Shown piece by piece: positions 2,539 through 45,408 of a stretch of DNA of 46,628 nucleotides. The DNA is from a virus. Each line of letters opens with the position of its first letter. The first letter of the stretch is position 1. The notes under the pieces are model-generated. The model saw only the letters and a list, made by a program, of their open reading frames with translations. It was not told the origin of the DNA and made no database searches. The translations under genes were made by a program, and so were the position numbers. Location: the IMG/VR virus record IMGVR_UViG_3300042434_000967, positions 1-46,628 of that record. One strand, 5' to 3'.

Positions 2539-4365
2539 ATGGAAATCCTCCAAGGCATCGAGTATCTGTCCACGCTCGATGATGCAAGTTTTGTTGCGTT
2601 TGATGTTGAGACCACTGGGCTTCAGCCGAAGTTCGGTGGTCTTCGGCTTTTGCAGTTGGCCACCTTCGGCAAGACTCCGGTAGTGCTGGATTGCTGGAGC
2701 TTTAGTGATGAAGACTGGATCACGCTCGAAGAGTTCTGCAGCGTTCCACGGAAATGGCTGGCGCACAATGCTGTTTTTGATCTTGGCTGGCTTCAGGAAC
2801 ATGAAATTTATCCGGAAGGAAAGGTTTTTTGCTCGATGTTGGCCAGTCGGATCCTGACGAATGGGCTGCCGAACTTGAAGCACGGGCTCCAGCACGTTGT
2901 GCATCGTTACCTTGGCCAAGACATATCCAAGGAAGAGCAGAAGAGCGATTGGTCGGGGGATCTGCGCGTGGAGCAGATTGAGTACGCGGCCAAAGACGTG
3001 GTGGTGTTGACTCAGCTGTGGGAGCCCATCGTGAAGCGGATGGCCACCGGGGTGTTGATGCCAGCCTGGGAGCTGGAGTGCAAGGCGCTTCCGGCGATGG
3101 CGCAATTATGGCGAACGGGCCTTCCCTTTAATAAGGAAATGCTTATTCAACTTATTGAAGACTTAGATATTGAAAACGTTGAAGTAGGCGAGCAGTTTAT
3201 CGAGGACTTTGATGCTGCTCTTTCGCCGGAACATAAGCTGCACCGCGGGCTTGATGGGAAGTTGCTGTACCAGACGAAGCCGGGGCCAAAAGGTAAGAAG
3301 CCAGACCCGAATGTTTTCAACCTCAACAGTCCTGCGCAGTTACTCAAGAAGTTCACCGCTTTGCTTGGTGAGCCGCCGATGGACATGAAGAACGGTAAGC
3401 CGAGTGCCAGTAAATCTGCGCTTCAGGAATATGTTGGTGACCACAAAGTTGTTGCTGACTATTTGCGGTGGAAAAAAGTAGAGAAGCGTAGGCAGATGGC
3501 TGAAACTTTGTTGAAGAACTATTCAGCGGATGGGTTTATTCGTGCCAGTTATATGCAGCTTGGCGCTGATACAGGGCGCATGTCGTGTATTTCGCCGAAC
3601 TTGCAGCAGGTACCGAGGGATCCACGGTTTAGGGCTGCGGTTCAGGCGCCGACTGGTTGGAAACTGGTTGTTGCGGACTATGGGCAGATGGAGCTGCGGC
3701 TTGCGGCGGCAGAAGCACAGGATCCCTTAATGACCGAGGTGTTCCAGCAGGGGCAGGACCTTCATACGATGACGGCGACGCAGATTTATGGGGTAGAGCC
3801 AGATGAGGTTACGAAGGAACAGCGGCAAATCGCTAAGTCTGCAAACTTCGGATTGTTATACGGAAGCGGCGCAAAAGGACTCAGAAACTATGCGGCTTCG
3901 ACCGGAATCCAGATGGATCTTGATGAGGCGGCGGAGGTGCGGGAAAAGTTCCATGCTGCATATAAAGGCATCTCCAAATGGCAGCAGCAGAATGCTCGCG
4001 CTGCTGATGCGGCTAAGGACAATCCATCTATCCGCATACGCATCTCGGGCTTGCGGCGGTTTTTACCGGGTGAGCACAACAAACTCACCACCCGCTGCAA
4101 CAGCCCCATTCAGGGGGCAGGTGCTGCAGTCCTCAAACTTACGCTCGGCAAATTGTGGCCTTTACTCCACGCCGATGGGGAGGACGTGGTGCGTTTGGCC
4201 GGCGTGGTGCATGACGAAATCATCTTGCTCGTCCGCGAAGAACACGCAGATGTCTGGGCGCTCCAGCTGCAAACCGTGATGGAGGAAGCTGAAGCTCGTT
4301 GGTTGGGTGATATTCCACCGCTTGCTGAAGCTAAGGTCGGGGATAGCTGGCAAGAGGCCAAGTGA
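2539..4365 (+). CDS. polA: Family A DNA polymerase (T7-like, with 3'-5' exonuclease)
   Basis: This is the replicative polymerase of the phage. The N-terminal DEDDy exonuclease shows DVETTG (D22, E24), HNAVFDLGWL (D81) and YAAKDVVVL (Y149, D153). The polymerase part shows DTGRMSCISPNLQQVPR, motif A VADYGQMELRLA (D380), motif B RQIAKSANFGLLYGSG, and motif C GVVHDEI (D559). Motif A has Gly and Met where DYSQIELR is usual. At 608 aa it lacks the 5' nuclease of bacterial Pol I, like T7 polymerase. No separate thioredoxin-binding insertion is obvious to me. Its stop overlaps a GTG that starts a small gene. It works with the primase-helicase at 42056 and the probable SSB at 41333. Confidence 0.96.
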   Translation: MEILQGIEYLSTLDDASFVAFDVETTGLQPKFGGLRLLQLATFGKTPVVLDCWSFSDEDWITLEEFCSVPRKWLAHNAVFDLGWLQEHEIYPEGKVFCSMLASRILTNGLPNLKHGLQHVVHRYLGQDISKEEQKSDWSGDLRVEQIEYAAKDVVVLTQLWEPIVKRMATGVLMPAWELECKALPAMAQLWRTGLPFNKEMLIQLIEDLDIENVEVGEQFIEDFDAALSPEHKLHRGLDGKLLYQTKPGPKGKKPDPNVFNLNSPAQLLKKFTALLGEPPMDMKNGKPSASKSALQEYVGDHKVVADYLRWKKVEKRRQMAETLLKNYSADGFIRASYMQLGADTGRMSCISPNLQQVPRDPRFRAAVQAPTGWKLVVADYGQMELRLAAAEAQDPLMTEVFQQGQDLHTMTATQIYGVEPDEVTKEQRQIAKSANFGLLYGSGAKGLRNYAASTGIQMDLDEAAEVREKFHAAYKGISKWQQQNARAADAAKDNPSIRIRISGLRRFLPGEHNKLTTRCNSPIQGAGAAVLKLTLGKLWPLLHADGEDVVRLAGVVHDEIILLVREEHADVWALQLQTVMEEAEARWLGDIPPLAEAKVGDSWQEAK

Positions 4366-5815: not shown

Positions 5816-6033
5816 GCGGAGTCGCGGTCCATTCCAAACTGATCGGCCAGGTTGTCTGCGGCTTCGCGGATAGCCCAGGCCGATTTTGTGCGTTCCAGCT
5901 GGTGGAGCGTGTTCAGGACAAGGGCAGCTTCGAGGAGGCCGCGATAATCCTGTTTGTTGAACAGGCTGACTAACCACTGGTCCGTGGCTGCCTTGTGGAA
6001 GCTGGACTCGGGGGTGTGCTCAATAGGTCTCAT
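5812..6033 (-). CDS. Hypothetical protein, 73 aa, last gene of the leftward block
   Basis: Not recognised. The protein looks helical and soluble: SSFHKAATDQWLVSLFNKQ, then DYRGLLEAALVLNTLHQLER and AIREAADNLADQFGMDRD. Short proteins of this kind with a leucine-rich central helix are frequent in cyanophages. It begins 14 bases inside the 3' end of the HNH gene and ends at the convergence point with the + strand genes. Loss of this gene would leave the HNH gene as the block's end, so it may have been displaced by HNH insertion. Confidence 0.6.
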   Translation of the reverse strand: MRPIEHTPESSFHKAATDQWLVSLFNKQDYRGLLEAALVLNTLHQLERTKSAWAIREAADNLADQFGMDRDSA

Positions 6034-6508
6034 AAGTTGACAGCACAGCTTCTCTATACACTATGGCCGCTTGTTTAGTGTCAAACAGTCCAAGGTAGAC
6101 ACGTTCATTATTCCTTTGGATTCTTGCCGTCCATTTTCCTGTGACTTTGTGAAAATTCACTCCAAGATGTTTGCTTGGGTATGTACGGTTATTGGCCTGA
6201 GTAAAGTCATCTGCGAGGCGTAAATTTGACCATGTGTTATTAAAAGGATCTTGATCTATATGGTCGATGCTTAGTTGTGGATCTTCTCCTGTCATCCAGC
6301 GCCAAGCCAAACGGTGCGCAGGGTACTGGACGTTCTCTACGTAAATAAGAACAAGCCACGGTTTACCGCCTCTCCTCGTTCTTTTACAGCCAGCGACTTT
6401 CCCTTTTCGTGCGCCGGTTTTAAATATAAATTCTCCTGTTTCTTTATTATAGTCGTAGTAATGTTTAATCTTTTCTTGTGCAGGCAATTTACGAAAAGCC
6501 GTAGCCAT
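6020..6508 (-). CDS. HNH homing-type endonuclease with C-terminal AP2-like domain
   Basis: The first half carries the HNH_3-type signature: AHRLAWRWMTGEDP, LSIDHIDQDPFNNTWSNLR (about residues 65-100) and ANNRTYPS. The second half is the AP2-like DNA-binding unit: HLGVNFHKVTGKWTARI, then RVYLGLFDTKQAAIVYREAV. Such enzymes nick or cut DNA and spread as free-standing mobile genes in phages. The gene is visibly richer in A+T than its neighbours, which supports recent acquisition. It is located between the endolysin gene and the block's last gene. All expected HNH residues seem to be present, so it is probably active. Confidence 0.85.
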   Translation of the reverse strand: MATAFRKLPAQEKIKHYYDYNKETGEFIFKTGARKGKVAGCKRTRRGGKPWLVLIYVENVQYPAHRLAWRWMTGEDPQLSIDHIDQDPFNNTWSNLRLADDFTQANNRTYPSKHLGVNFHKVTGKWTARIQRNNERVYLGLFDTKQAAIVYREAVLSTYETY

Positions 6509-8817: not shown

Positions 8818-9131
8818 CAGTTAGCCCAAGGCACGCCAGCAGCTTTCGACGGCGAGCGCTGTTCGTTGATTTGCGATTGTAGGGCGGCTTCGATCTCGGC
8901 AACCTTCTCGTCACCACCCAAGGCTTCTTTGACCCAGCTGATCACGGTGTCTTCGGTGAGGTCGGCGTAGGGAATCAGGTTGTCAGGGCGTTGAAAACCG
9001 ATGCTGCCGTAGGCGGAACTGCTGTAAGTACCATCATTCGCAGAGATCGTGTAGTGGGCGCAAAATACATACCCGTCCTCGGTTTCGCGTTCGAGGTTGG
9101 CAATCGCCCAAGTAAATACAGTGTCAGCCAT
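8817..9131 (-). CDS. Conserved cyanophage-type protein, 104 aa
   Basis: The protein has the regular layout TWAIANLERETEDGYVFCAH, then YTISANDGTYSSSAYGSIGF and a helical C-terminal part (DTVISWVKEALGGDEKVAEI) that ends KAAGVPWAN. I recall the same pattern (W-x-I-x-N-L-E-R, then G-W-V-K-E-A-L-G) from T4-like cyanophage genes of unknown function that lie among tail and structural genes. The beta-rich first part and helical tail suggest a structural or chaperone protein. It is coupled by TGATG to the small basic protein gene. Confidence 0.7.
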   Translation of the reverse strand: MADTVFTWAIANLERETEDGYVFCAHYTISANDGTYSSSAYGSIGFQRPDNLIPYADLTEDTVISWVKEALGGDEKVAEIEAALQSQINEQRSPSKAAGVPWAN

Positions 9132-9208
9132 GAAAATAGTGGCAGTGGTACCAGAGTAGTCGTGTTGCAGCCAGTTGGGAAGGGTCGGCTGCCCACCCTT
9201 TAAAGAAG

Positions 9209-9867: not shown

Positions 9868-10180
9868 CAAGTTGCTCCAGTGCTCGACGGATGGTGTTCT
9901 CGTGCGCTGCGTCAAGCCGATCTGATGCGTCATCAAGAACAGCTAGCGCCTGTTCCTTCAGGCTCGGCGGCTTGGGGCGGCGAGCGAGGAGAAGTTTGTC
10001 TGCTGTTTCAACGTCAGTCCAATCGCGCACAAACCACTCATAACACGCCTCCAGCTCAGTGTCTGCACCCCATTGGGCGGCGTGACGAGCTAAGTCGTAC
10101 TTAGTACTGTGATCTTGCATCCACTGCTCTACCAGCTCCGGCGGCGGGGCAATGGGATGCATGTAATCTTGTTGGGTCAT
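9860..10180 (-). CDS. Hypothetical protein, paralogue of the gene at 45043
   Basis: I start at the ATG at 10180 (MTQQDYMHPIAPPPELVEQW). The protein shares a clear pattern with the product of 45043-45408: an N-terminal HPI-PPP-L---W, the centre HAAQWGADTELEACYEW, then ARRPKPPSLKEQAL and the same last nine residues, RRALEQLDD. The family is, from memory, frequent in picocyanobacterial phages and hosts and has no known function. The two copies lie in different transcription units (late leftward here, early rightward there), so one may act early and one late. It overlaps the next gene by eight bases. Confidence 0.7.
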   Translation of the reverse strand: MTQQDYMHPIAPPPELVEQWMQDHSTKYDLARHAAQWGADTELEACYEWFVRDWTDVETADKLLLARRPKPPSLKEQALAVLDDASDRLDAAHENTIRRALEQLDD

Positions 10181-10310
10181 GGTTTCTAGGGAACTGTGGC
10201 CAGGGGCAGGGTGTTGACGCACCGCTGTCCCCACCAACACTACCACACGGCGTCAAGCCCAACCATCCGGAAATTCCAGATAGTTGAGCCAGGTATTTTA
10301 GAGAGTAAGT

Positions 10311-12239
10311 CTACACGCCTTCAAGGGCTGCAACTTTGGCCTCAAGGGTTTCGATGCGAACCTGAGCTTCCTGAAGGGCTTTGATTGCCATCCAGTACAT
10401 CTGCTGCTCTTTGACCCCTAGACGCTCTTCACGCGCAGGTTCGTCATCAGTAGCTTCCTTGGCTTCTTGGAAGATGGTTATCACCTCAGGGCAGCTCTCA
10501 GCCACTTGTTGGGCAATTACACCAAGGCTTAAATCTGCGTCGTCTGGCTGATCCTTGTAGCGGTAGTTGACGATCTCCCATTCCTTAAGGCAGTTCCAGG
10601 TGTCAGCAGCAGGGCTGATGTCTTTCTTGGCGTTGCGGTCGGAAAGGTTTGCGTTATTGGCGCTGAAGTTAGCAAGACCGCCATTGCTGCGGATCTGCGC
10701 TCGTAGCACCCCTCCACCCTGACATTCCAAGAAATCTCTTGTTGCATCGTTTTGATCATTTTCTGTCCTGATACTCAGGCCGTATTGCGTTCCATTGCTA
10801 GCAGCGCTAGAAATAACTAGAACATTGTTGTTGTCAGTATTATTTCTAATCTCGTGAACATTACTGTCGCTGCTAAGATACGATCCAGTATTGCTTGCCT
10901 TAAAAACACCCCGGCTGGTAATCCTCATCCGCTCCGTCGGGCTGCTCCCAGGACCAGTACCACTAGGTTTTGTATGAAACTCAATTCGGCTACCCGCCGT
11001 ACTACCGCTGTGGTTTTCATCTGCAACGGCTTGGATTAAGACTTCCGCTGCAGAGTTTGAGTTTGCGCTAACAGTTCCCTTGAAGCCTATGGAGCCTAGG
11101 GTTTGTCCACTTGTAGGACTTCCTGTTTGGTTGCGGTTAATTTGAACTCCGCCACCATCGCCTAAAACGACAAGTTTTTCTAGAGCACTTGTAGACGTGC
11201 CAACTAACAACCTACCGGAGCTGTCGATGCGGGCGCGTTCTGTGCCTGTTCCGTATGTTCCGCTGTAGAACACATAAGCGTTAGAGCTGTTTGCACCAAC
11301 ATGCCAATTGCCCGCCGTGGATTTGTATTGAATAAAAGCATCGGTTAAGTTACCAACTTGTGCAACAGCGCTTGCGACATCAAGTGCATACCCAGGCGAA
11401 GTAGTGCCAATCCCTACCGCTCCTTCGTCGGTTACGGTCACTCTGACCGTTGATGAAGTGCCGTCGATAAAAGCTAGTTTTTTGTCGTCAATGGCAGTGG
11501 CATCTACAGCGATTCTCCAGGTCTGTGTGCTGTTTCTATTTCTAAGCGCCAAGGCAGCACCCAAGGAGGCTGACTCTTGAAGAGTTAGAAGGCACCCATC
11601 CGCAGCACTAGAAGTCCCCAGACCTAGTTTCCCGTCAGTGGTAATACGTAGTTTCTCGCCGTTGTTTGTAACCAGCCCAATAGGGTGATTTGAAAGAGAG
11701 CCAATTTTTACGAAATCTTGTCCGGAATCAGCCCCGGCGATCATTGTTTTGGTGCCATCAGAAGCTTCGTAAAAATGAACAGAGGTACCTCCTCCGTTTT
11801 GCAGATAAACACCAAGATTATTGCCTGTGCCGTTTCCGCCAATACCAACTTTTCCATTGGCGTCTACAACAATTTTCTGAGTGCCATTAGTCGAGATGGC
11901 TACGTTGTTTGCGGAAGGTAGATAAACGCCGTTGGTGGGGACGCTGCTGCTGGTTGGGATGAACGATGCAGCCGTGCTCGTGCCAGTGGTGACGACGTTC
12001 TGGCTGCCGAAGTTAGGGCTGATCTTGGTGCCAGCAATCGCGGCGCTGCTGTCCACCATCGCATTGGTCACTAGGGACCAATCGGTGTCGTAGTTGGTGC
12101 TGCTCGCCTTCCGAAGCACTTGGTTGGCTGTGCCGCCAGTAGGGAGATTGCTGCCCGTGGCGCCTTGGACGCCTGGAACTGCCAGCACAATCTGCGTGTC
12201 TTGCTGGTCGATGACCGCAATCTGCACTTCGGAAGACAT
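10311..12239 (-). CDS. Tail fibre/spike with C-terminal S74 intramolecular chaperone, 642 aa
   Basis: This would be a trimeric host-recognition fibre. The N terminus (MSSEVQIAVIDQQDTQIVL) is a probable attachment part with a short collagen-like GVQGATG, followed by a long beta-rich shaft with repeated GKVGIGGNG- and GAVGIGTTSPGY-type units. The C-terminal domain, about residues 540-642, has the peptidase S74 pattern: LSDRNAKKDISPAADTW, YRYKDQPDDADLSLGVIAQQ and a coiled-coil end (ALQEAQVRIETLEAKVAALE). In this family the domain trims itself off after trimer assembly, using the Ser-Lys pair near SDRNAKKD. It is the last large structural gene of the late block. Confidence 0.85.
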   Translation of the reverse strand: MSSEVQIAVIDQQDTQIVLAVPGVQGATGSNLPTGGTANQVLRKASSTNYDTDWSLVTNAMVDSSAAIAGTKISPNFGSQNVVTTGTSTAASFIPTSSSVPTNGVYLPSANNVAISTNGTQKIVVDANGKVGIGGNGTGNNLGVYLQNGGGTSVHFYEASDGTKTMIAGADSGQDFVKIGSLSNHPIGLVTNNGEKLRITTDGKLGLGTSSAADGCLLTLQESASLGAALALRNRNSTQTWRIAVDATAIDDKKLAFIDGTSSTVRVTVTDEGAVGIGTTSPGYALDVASAVAQVGNLTDAFIQYKSTAGNWHVGANSSNAYVFYSGTYGTGTERARIDSSGRLLVGTSTSALEKLVVLGDGGGVQINRNQTGSPTSGQTLGSIGFKGTVSANSNSAAEVLIQAVADENHSGSTAGSRIEFHTKPSGTGPGSSPTERMRITSRGVFKASNTGSYLSSDSNVHEIRNNTDNNNVLVISSAASNGTQYGLSIRTENDQNDATRDFLECQGGGVLRAQIRSNGGLANFSANNANLSDRNAKKDISPAADTWNCLKEWEIVNYRYKDQPDDADLSLGVIAQQVAESCPEVITIFQEAKEATDDEPAREERLGVKEQQMYWMAIKALQEAQVRIETLEAKVAALEGV

Positions 12240-44479: not shown

Positions 44480-44820
44480 TGGGACACTTCACCCCGCCTA
44501 ACTTTTTCCTAGGGCTCATGCGGGTTGCCGCGTGGGTGTTTTGGAGAGATCCCGTGAAGCCGGAACCGCCCCAGCCGAAGCGCCCCAGGAAGCCCACCCT
44601 GGGGTACACCGTCGGCGACATTCCCTACGAGCTGCTCGCCGTGGTCCGGGTCTCTTGGTACCGCAAAGGCGTGGCTTACGAGGTGGAGGAGTACCAGATC
44701 GAGGAGTCGGATGACGCCCCGAAACAGTTCCACTACATCGTTGGGACTGCACTTCGCCAAGGCGCTGACGTCTGCGTGCTCACGCAGTACGAACCAGAAG
44801 CCTTAGGTGTGCAACAATAG
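44479..44820 (+). CDS. Hypothetical protein, 113 aa
   Basis: Not recognised. The ATG at 44479 overlaps the stop of the primase-helicase (TGATG). A hydrophobic N terminus (FFLGLMRVAAWVFW, about residues 9-22) could be a membrane anchor, followed by a proline- and lysine-rich linker (RDPVKPEPPQPKRPRKPTLG). The folded part (YELLAVVRVSWYRKGVAYEV, EEYQIEESDDAPKQFHYIVG, VCVLTQYEP) is beta-rich. It may dock a replication or host protein at the membrane. A promoter-like 12-mer overlaps its 3' end. Confidence 0.6.
   Translation: MGHFTPPNFFLGLMRVAAWVFWRDPVKPEPPQPKRPRKPTLGYTVGDIPYELLAVVRVSWYRKGVAYEVEEYQIEESDDAPKQFHYIVGTALRQGADVCVLTQYEPEALGVQQ
44808..44819 (+). promoter_or_regulatory. Promoter-like 12-mer before the tRNA-like element
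   Basis: TGTGCAACAATA is an exact fit to TGTGCWACAMTA, with AACAAT as -10. It overlaps the stop codon of the preceding gene and lies 33 bases before the tRNA-like element at 44852, which would then be transcribed from about 44826. Confidence 0.5.
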
Positions 44821-44851
44821 AAAGGTTCCCGCTCTGCTTCGGCATCGGGCT

Positions 44852-44921
44852 GGGTCGGTAGTCCATTGGTAAGGACAGGCGGACAACGCTTCAGACAGTC
44901 GGTTCGATTCCGGCACGACCC
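44852..44921 (+). ncRNA. tRNA-like element with abnormal anticodon arm
   Basis: The 70-base element has an acceptor stem GGGTCG/CGACCC (six pairs; the seventh is G-A), T8, a perfect D arm (GTCC, loop ATTGGTAA, GGAC; 44861-44876) and a perfect T arm (GTCGG, loop TTCGATT, CCGGC; 44898-44914). Between D and T arms there are only 21 bases instead of about 22-23, and the only stem there is AGGCG/CGCTT around a 5-base loop GACAA. A normal 7-base anticodon loop with T33 cannot be drawn. No CCA is coded. It is either a decayed tRNA or a tRNA mimic and is unlikely to decode. Confidence 0.65.
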
Positions 44922-45023
44922 GAGGGGTGCAGCTCGGTCGGGGCTGCATTAAACGCGACTCGCCCATAAACCTTTGTACGCCCCTCACCCCAAATCCACT
45001 GGTACGACTAGCTTTCGTACCTA

Positions 45024-45041
45024 ACATAAAAACTTTTATGT
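45024..45041 (+). promoter_or_regulatory. Perfect palindrome just before a start codon
   Basis: ACATAAAA-AC-TTTTATGT is a perfect 8-bp inverted repeat that ends one base before the ATG at 45043. No Shine-Dalgarno sequence is present. A further hairpin, GTACGA/TCGTAC (45002-45007, 45015-45020), precedes it. It may be an operator or an RNA structure controlling this start. Confidence 0.5.
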
Positions 45042-45042
45042 A

Positions 45043-45408
45043 ATGACACAAGAGCATCCCATCACCCCACCTCCCAAACTTGCTGCTAGGTGGGTCAACG
45101 AAATCTACGGCGATGACGGTTTAGGCTTCGACGTTCCCCTTCACCCCATCACGCTTCGGCTGATAGAACACGCCGCCCAATGGGGCGCTGATCAGGAGCT
45201 TGAGGCGTGCTTGCAGTGGTTAAACCACAAAAATCAAAATCGTCCTGACTGGGGCCTCAGCCTCCAAGACGCACGCCGCCCCAAGCCGCCGAGTCTGAAG
45301 GAGCAGGCGCTGTTGCAGTTAGACGTGCTCAATGCAGACCTAGCCATGCACGGCCTTGGAACCGACCTGTCTCAAATCCGCCGCGCACTGGAACAGCTCG
45401 ATGACTGA
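45043..45408 (+). CDS. Hypothetical protein, paralogue of the gene at 9860
   Basis: The protein shows HPITPPPKLAARWVNEIYG at the N terminus, HAAQWGADQELEACLQWL in the middle, and ARRPKPPSLKEQALLQLDVL followed by IRRALEQLDD at the end. The last part and the centre are nearly the same as in the product of 9860-10180; the variable part lies between. Like that one it belongs to a family of cyanobacterial and cyanophage proteins of unknown function. It is headed by a palindrome at its start codon and overlaps the next gene by eight bases. The pair might arise from duplication inside the phage or from two separate acquisitions. Confidence 0.72.
   Translation: MTQEHPITPPPKLAARWVNEIYGDDGLGFDVPLHPITLRLIEHAAQWGADQELEACLQWLNHKNQNRPDWGLSLQDARRPKPPSLKEQALLQLDVLNADLAMHGLGTDLSQIRRALEQLDD

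Follow-up and report, generated by a model that had tools for sequence, protein, structure and literature searches.

The stretch of cyanophage DNA analyzed here (the window; 46,628 nucleotides, positions 1–46,628 of IMG/VR virus record IMGVR_UViG_3300042434_000967) harbors an element of 70 nt that has the outline of a tRNA without a normal anticodon loop. This raises the question of whether the element is a tRNA lost to decay or to an assembly deletion or an RNA that phages maintain in this form, and, in the latter case, what it is maintained for.

Fold and annotation of the element in the window

The features of the element and its flanks, with the basis of each, are as follows:

44828–44849, plus strand: hairpin CCCG...CGGG upstream of the tRNA-like RNA, with 2 nt between the two (fold of 44818–45045)
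44852–44921, plus strand: tRNA-like RNA (TLS), whole element (fold, Rfam tRNA, family model R1, blastn)
44852–44858, plus strand: acceptor stem, 5′ strand GGGTCGG (6 pairs with 44916–44921)
44861–44876, plus strand: D arm GTCC-ATTGGTAA-GGAC (fold)
44877–44891, plus strand: short arm AGGCG-GACAA-CGCTT at the anticodon-arm position (covarying stem and conserved loop)
44882–44886, plus strand: GACAA pentaloop (scan without the loop specified; P22 boxB parallel, PMC12550061)
44892–44897, plus strand: variable region CAGACA (alignment)
44898–44914, plus strand: T arm GTCGG-TTCGATT-CCGGC (covarying T stem, T loop TTCRANT)
44915–44921, plus strand: acceptor stem, 3′ strand ACGACCC (sequence)
44922–44990, plus strand: downstream structured stretch GTGCA..TGCATTAAAC (fold; resembles a TLS-adjacent module in S-CREM1 and class II phages)

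The element reads GGGTCGG-TA-GTCC-ATTGGTAA-GGAC-AGGCG-GACAA-CGCTT-CAGACA-GTCGG-TTCGATT-CCGGC-ACGACCC (44852–44921), and its 70 nt fold with a minimum free energy of −27.1 kcal/mol (z −2.84; 3 of 200 shuffles were equally good). In the predicted fold, the acceptor consists of 6 bp and a G44858·A44915 mismatch at position 7, the D stem GUCC/GGAC carries GG in its loop, and the T stem GUCGG/CCGGC closes the loop UUCGAUU, which, apart from the acceptor mismatch, agrees with the earlier description of these three arms as intact. The anticodon arm is replaced by AGGCG-GACAA-CGCUU, a stem of 5 bp with a 5-nt loop, and the fold thereby confirmed the shortening that had been read from the letters. With a loop of 5 nt, the RNA should not decode. 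No CCA is encoded after the element, the base 3′ of 44921 being G. The earlier note had also placed a promoter 33 bases upstream, which was not recovered, as a scan with the sigma-70 consensus returned 0 sites; a phage-specific promoter may still be present.

The element is easily passed over by standard annotation. Rfam tRNA (RF00005) matched it at 34.4 bits (E 1.3e-5) when the local stretch was scanned and was absent at this site from the whole-window scan; ARAGORN reported 0 tRNAs on the whole window, and neither ARAGORN nor Rfam found a tmRNA in it. Family model R1 scored the element at 79.6 bits, the window member being included in its training set, and the E-values obtained with the shortened calibration are approximate only. 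Rfam holds no dedicated family for the GACAA tRNA-like RNA, the members of which match RF00005 alone at about 33–47 bits. Among 158 distinct TLS copies, ARAGORN called 62 as tRNA-Leu(CAA), 30 as tRNA-His(AUG), and 17 otherwise, leaving 49 uncalled. No description of such an RNA was found in the literature searched, a search that largely did not extend to subscription journals and bioRxiv. The GACAA tRNA-like RNA is a real RNA family, apparently undescribed so far, and it appears to be a widespread one, missed by standard annotation or filed as tRNA-Leu(CAA) or tRNA-His(AUG).

Conservation of the fold and of the GACAA loop

A 25-nt core of the element, GGACAGGCGGACAACGCTTCAGACA, was present without change in 12 further IMG/VR viral contigs, which goes far beyond what chance would give. 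Among these, the acceptor showed a compensatory change from GGGTCG/CGACCC to GGGTTG/CAACCC, and the sequence 3′ of the TLS varied (L008, L010) around a constant RNA core. The TLS was also matched by blastn, at E 1e-4 and without annotation, in the cyanomyoviruses S-CREM1, S-RIM32, and DSL-LC03, and was further located in S-PM2, S-RIM8, and S-SZBM1. For S-CREM1, 24 tRNAs by tRNAscan-SE and four other Rfam RNAs have been reported (PMC9964418); its record carries no annotation of the TLS. The total length close to that of a tRNA, and the treatment of members as tRNA by Rfam and ARAGORN, would suit a decaying tRNA or one shortened by a 1–2-base assembly deletion, and the chance of this is practically negligible given the identical core in 12 contigs, the covariation in the arms, and the single design conserved across phage types. 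The same short arm is shared by no fewer than 12 other contigs of the lineage and by unrelated phages, which refutes a recent deletion or an assembly error. Of the two origins entertained in the earlier note, the very recent deletion was thereby lost, and the structural mimic was retained, its arms being kept by compensatory changes and the short arm being conserved. The proposed comparison with related phages showed this conservation to lie in the covariation of the stem and in the sequence of the loop. Blast-suggested relatives in Aeromonas AhSzw-1, P-RSM6, BcepSauron, and POP17 were weak matches that proved on reading to be ordinary tRNAs, and a match in Streptomyces Jay2Jay was an odd sequence judged to be unrelated.

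The structure was evaluated in an alignment of 36 members (A3). The proposed TLS structure was paired in 96% of cells, with two-sided changes in 14 of its 20 pairs, and obtained a covariation score of 0.67 as compared to 0.04–0.17 in slid controls, which were paired in 30–48% of cells. RNAalifold independently recovered the four stems. A canonical anticodon arm of 5 bp with a 7-nt loop was not supported for the TLS, as it paired in 43% of cells against the 96% of the proposed structure. The short arm has a stem of 3 bp around the GACAA loop, realized as GCG/CGC, GCA/TGC, GTG/CAC, CCC/GGG, and others, and in most members an extra pair is formed by position 27 with the base 3′ of a bulged A; the window member is without the bulged A, and its arm is paired without interruption. 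At position 26 and the base that follows the position-27 pair, the usual combinations are A/U and G/A, resembling the 26–44 contact of tRNA. Position 7–66 was paired in 34 of 97 cases, a mismatch being frequent. As the base-pair changes are compensatory, selection acts on the RNA structure. The TLS is therefore a conserved and selected phage RNA family with a tRNA fold, in which a short GACAA-capped stem stands for the anticodon arm.

In common with tRNA (RF00005), the family has the acceptor, the D arm, the T arm with its TTCRANT loop, and a length near 70 nt, and GG is present in the D-loop of nearly all class I members. It differs in lacking a 7-nt anticodon loop, in its short covarying GACAA stem, and in its variable discriminator (A65 T48 C20 G8 in 141 distinct contexts), which is conserved in functional tRNAs. 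Likewise, the anticodon stem of 5 bp with a 7-nt loop and U33 that a functional tRNA has is missing. CCA follows N73 in 4 of 141 contexts, and the acceptor sequence varies freely; charging by one synthetase is thus unlikely. A working but unusual tRNA, or a donor of amino acids outside translation, would account for the tRNA-like acceptor, D, and T arms and for the resemblance of the class I D arm to that of tRNA-Glu. It is nevertheless very improbable in view of the 5-nt loop in nearly all members, the unsupported canonical arm, and the unconserved discriminator and acceptor sequence. The tRNA-like domain of tmRNA is also tRNA-like without an anticodon. In tmRNA, the D arm is reduced, the identity is that of alanine, and an mRNA part is present, whereas the TLS keeps its D stem, has no conserved acceptor letters, and has no tag region.

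Conservation of the loop can only be judged from searches in which it was left free, as scans with GACAA fixed cannot measure it. In a scan that fixed only letters of the D arm and T arm, with 17–30 free bases between them, GACAA was found in 148 of the 161 matches listed among the loci collected, a tally that includes loci entered through earlier GACAA-based scans. The remainder of the listed matches were mainly GATAA, GACAT, GTCAA, and AACAA, together with two genuine tRNA-Glu genes. Among the listed matches, 28 loci were new to the free-arm scan: 16 with exact GACAA, 10 with a 1-nt variant of loop or register, and 2 tRNA-Glu. Counts from the collection scans are lower bounds. Relaxed scans, in which GACAA was required and the D stem left free, recovered a class II chassis with the D arm GCC-AAAGGGTAA-GGC and classes III–IV with GCC../GGC and Leu-like D arms; the GACAA loop on a paired stem thus recurs on other chassis (classes II–IV), with a GCC/GGC D stem and differing T and acceptor stems. 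The scan AGGC-N5-GACAA-GGTTC gave at least 30 distinct sequences in the collected loci, 26 of 30 having an acceptor of 6–7/7, an arm of 3/3, and, except for L263, a T stem of 5/5. The defining features of the family, i.e., tRNA-like acceptor and T arm, an arm of 3–5 bp, and the GACAA loop, are found in the window member and equally in classes I–IV. L281, which has a T7/N4-like RNA polymerase, and L263, which has relatives in alphaproteobacterial phages, are among the loci without clear cyanophage signs, and the family may hence be wider than cyanophages.

In P22 boxB, GACAA forms a GNRA-like pentaloop, from which the C is looped out and to which the N peptide binds (PMC12550061). The TLS has the identical loop on a short stem and may fold in the same way, the likeness in three dimensions being suggested by this analogy; boxB is a free hairpin in the nut site and has no tRNA body. 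A GNRA-like loop should contain a sheared G·A, which the GACAT and AACAA loops that occur in the family would break. At the siphovirus site, L191 (9174–9246) and L183 and L184 (both 9099–9176) carry tRNA-like RNAs in which the acceptor and T arms are perfect and the cap is CGCT or TGCA; GACAA is thus not required in every such RNA (L191, L183).

Genome locations and neighboring RNAs

The family occupies different sites in different phage types. T4-like cyanophages carry the TLS within tRNA islands. Six complete genomes each had exactly one strong copy (>79 bits, with the next best at ≤43), and P-RSM6, scanned alongside these, had none. In T7-like podoviruses, the TLS precedes the capsid gene by about 200–270 nt in 9 of 9 loci examined, and it is absent from this site in the podovirus S-SRP01. 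In the siphovirus group of the window, it is positioned between the primase region and a gene for a 121-aa protein, strong copies being present in 8 of 80 primase loci, some of which end before the site, together with one class II copy. Locus L007 has two copies 1.5 kb apart, and three tandem paralogues of the 121-aa protein of the window (phrog_32006) are located between them (10799–12130, minus strand). The class I pattern had 0 matches in the genomes of 84,980 bacterial and archaeal species, and a second genome scan, with an approximate tRNA-Glu query aimed at cyanobacteria, also gave 0 matches. With unrelated loci in three phage types and a patchy presence, the TLS behaves as an accessory gene.

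tRNA islands are prone to recombination. Together with the presence/absence polymorphism of the TLS, this would be in line with an element acting at the DNA level, as a site of integration, homing, or recombination that resembles tRNA by chance; such an element is quite improbable because the compensatory changes imply selection on RNA structure. Control of the boxB type, in which a phage RNA-binding protein bound to the GACAA arm would alter downstream transcription or translation, draws on the loop shared with P22 boxB and on the leader position ahead of the podovirus capsid gene. It is improbable, as the downstream genes are wholly different between phage types and a full tRNA fold would be unnecessary.

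One neighbor of some TLS copies is abiF RNA (RF03085), which in C. difficile has been demonstrated to neutralize the toxin AbiF (PMC12373285). Both are small phage-borne RNAs of the same islands and are sometimes directly adjacent, whereas abiF RNA, for which a toxin partner is known, forms one hairpin only (37 model positions) and is unrelated to the TLS in sequence. All 15 Rfam-called abiF RNAs (L014, L023, L024, L027, L037, L045, L091, L115, L134, L141, L017, L128, L148, L163, and L271) have a tRNA or TLS 4–8 nt downstream. Beyond the Rfam calls, the adjacency figures are based on regular expressions, by which 17 of 17 non-edge abiF matches were followed by a tRNA (12) or TLS (5) within 4–8 nt. 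That tRNA and TLS are interchangeable as the 3′ neighbor of abiF points to processing of the tRNA type. A minority of TLS copies adjoin abiF, 5 of 39 outside tRNA islands, and in the window, abiF RNA had no match in 44700–45100 at E ≤ 10. The hairpin at 44828–44849 could possibly be a neighboring small RNA.

The same arrangement bears on the main rival to a counter-defence role, namely, that the TLS is a mere processing site acting in cis, at the ends of which RNase P and RNase Z would cut to give its neighbors (abiF RNA, capsid mRNA) defined ends, the released body having no job. This is a serious though doubtful possibility. It would explain why abiF is always followed at 4–8 nt by either a tRNA or a TLS, the position about 200–270 nt ahead of the capsid gene in all nine podovirus loci, and the spacers of few nt that often separate the TLS from neighboring tRNAs in islands. 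However, it gives no reason for the strong conservation of the GACAA loop across chassis, and a plain tRNA would serve equally well. Moreover, only a modest enrichment was seen for hairpins of any kind that end directly 5′ of the TLS (83% vs. 57–73% in controls), and a universal rule of an upstream hairpin was dropped for this reason. The two roles are not mutually exclusive.

Other modules recur beside the TLS. The module GTGCA..TGCATTAAAC..CTCGCCCA lies directly 3′ of it in several unrelated phages (window 44922–44990; L014 3067–3160; L267; L280; L285) and had no Rfam family at gathering score. A further unlabeled module, AAGCCTCTGT..TCCTTGAGG..ACGCTT..CCATC, is placed directly 5′ of the TLS in L227, L143, L033, L045, and L132 and spans cyanomyo-, podo-, and siphoviruses. 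In the window, two strong tandem hairpins, GGTACGA..TCGTACC and CATAAAA..TTTTATG, are present at 44999–45043 directly before the 121-aa gene, where no intrinsic terminator was called. The manA and wcaG RNAs share the setting of cyanomyovirus tRNA islands; their structures are unrelated, and they have been proposed to be cis-regulatory.

Proposed role and further observations

The preferred reading is that the TLS would be matured like a tRNA and that its GACAA arm would dock a protein, the likeliest purpose being counter-defence or regulation; a probability of roughly 45% is assigned to it. Host RNase P would cut at the 5′ end and RNase Z at the 3′ end to release the TLS from longer transcripts, and these enzymes would also trim abiF and other small RNAs nearby. 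The tRNA body would then serve as a stable scaffold with precise ends, on which the GACAA arm, as a GNRA-like pentaloop with its C flipped out, would make a specific protein contact. This contact is suggested by the loop being kept while the chassis changes. In the least certain step, the TLS would act in trans as a counter-defence or regulatory RNA by occupying a host RNA-binding or tRNA-sensing protein. Counter-defence is favored because the TLS is associated with an RNA of the antitoxin type, is distributed like an accessory gene, and has a precedent in phage tRNAs, which can evade tRNA-cleaving defence (PMC11555353). Those RNAs share the tRNA fold and the carriage by phages; they decode, whereas the TLS should not. 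The narrower proposal of a new class of counter-defence RNA, found beside abiF-type RNAs in phages of three tail types and possibly beyond cyanophages, the GACAA arm of which would disable a host effector (RNA-binding or tRNA-sensing), is rather unlikely. A role specific to tRNA-Glu (GluRS, tetrapyrrole synthesis), prompted by the Glu-like D arm of class I, was rejected, as the D arms of classes II–IV are Gln- or Leu-like.

The tRNA islands of phages are thus to be reread as small-RNA islands, with counter-defence RNAs possibly among them. Among the carriers, S-PM2, S-CREM1, and S-RIM32 exist as isolates infecting Synechococcus, which makes the expression, processing, and partners of the TLS directly testable.

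Some minor features were also observed in the loci collected. In L068, a T7-like podovirus contig, a Glutamine-II riboswitch (RF01704, 49 bits) at 2396–2448 precedes the TLS and capsid gene by ∼160 nt. In L045, an 83-kb phage contig with a large tRNA island, the selenocysteine-tRNA family RF01852 had two matches, at 3439–3522 and 10145–10228, both borderline with scores at threshold. In the window, a small free-standing ORF at 6020–6508 on the minus strand was recognized by eye as a putative HNH homing endonuclease.
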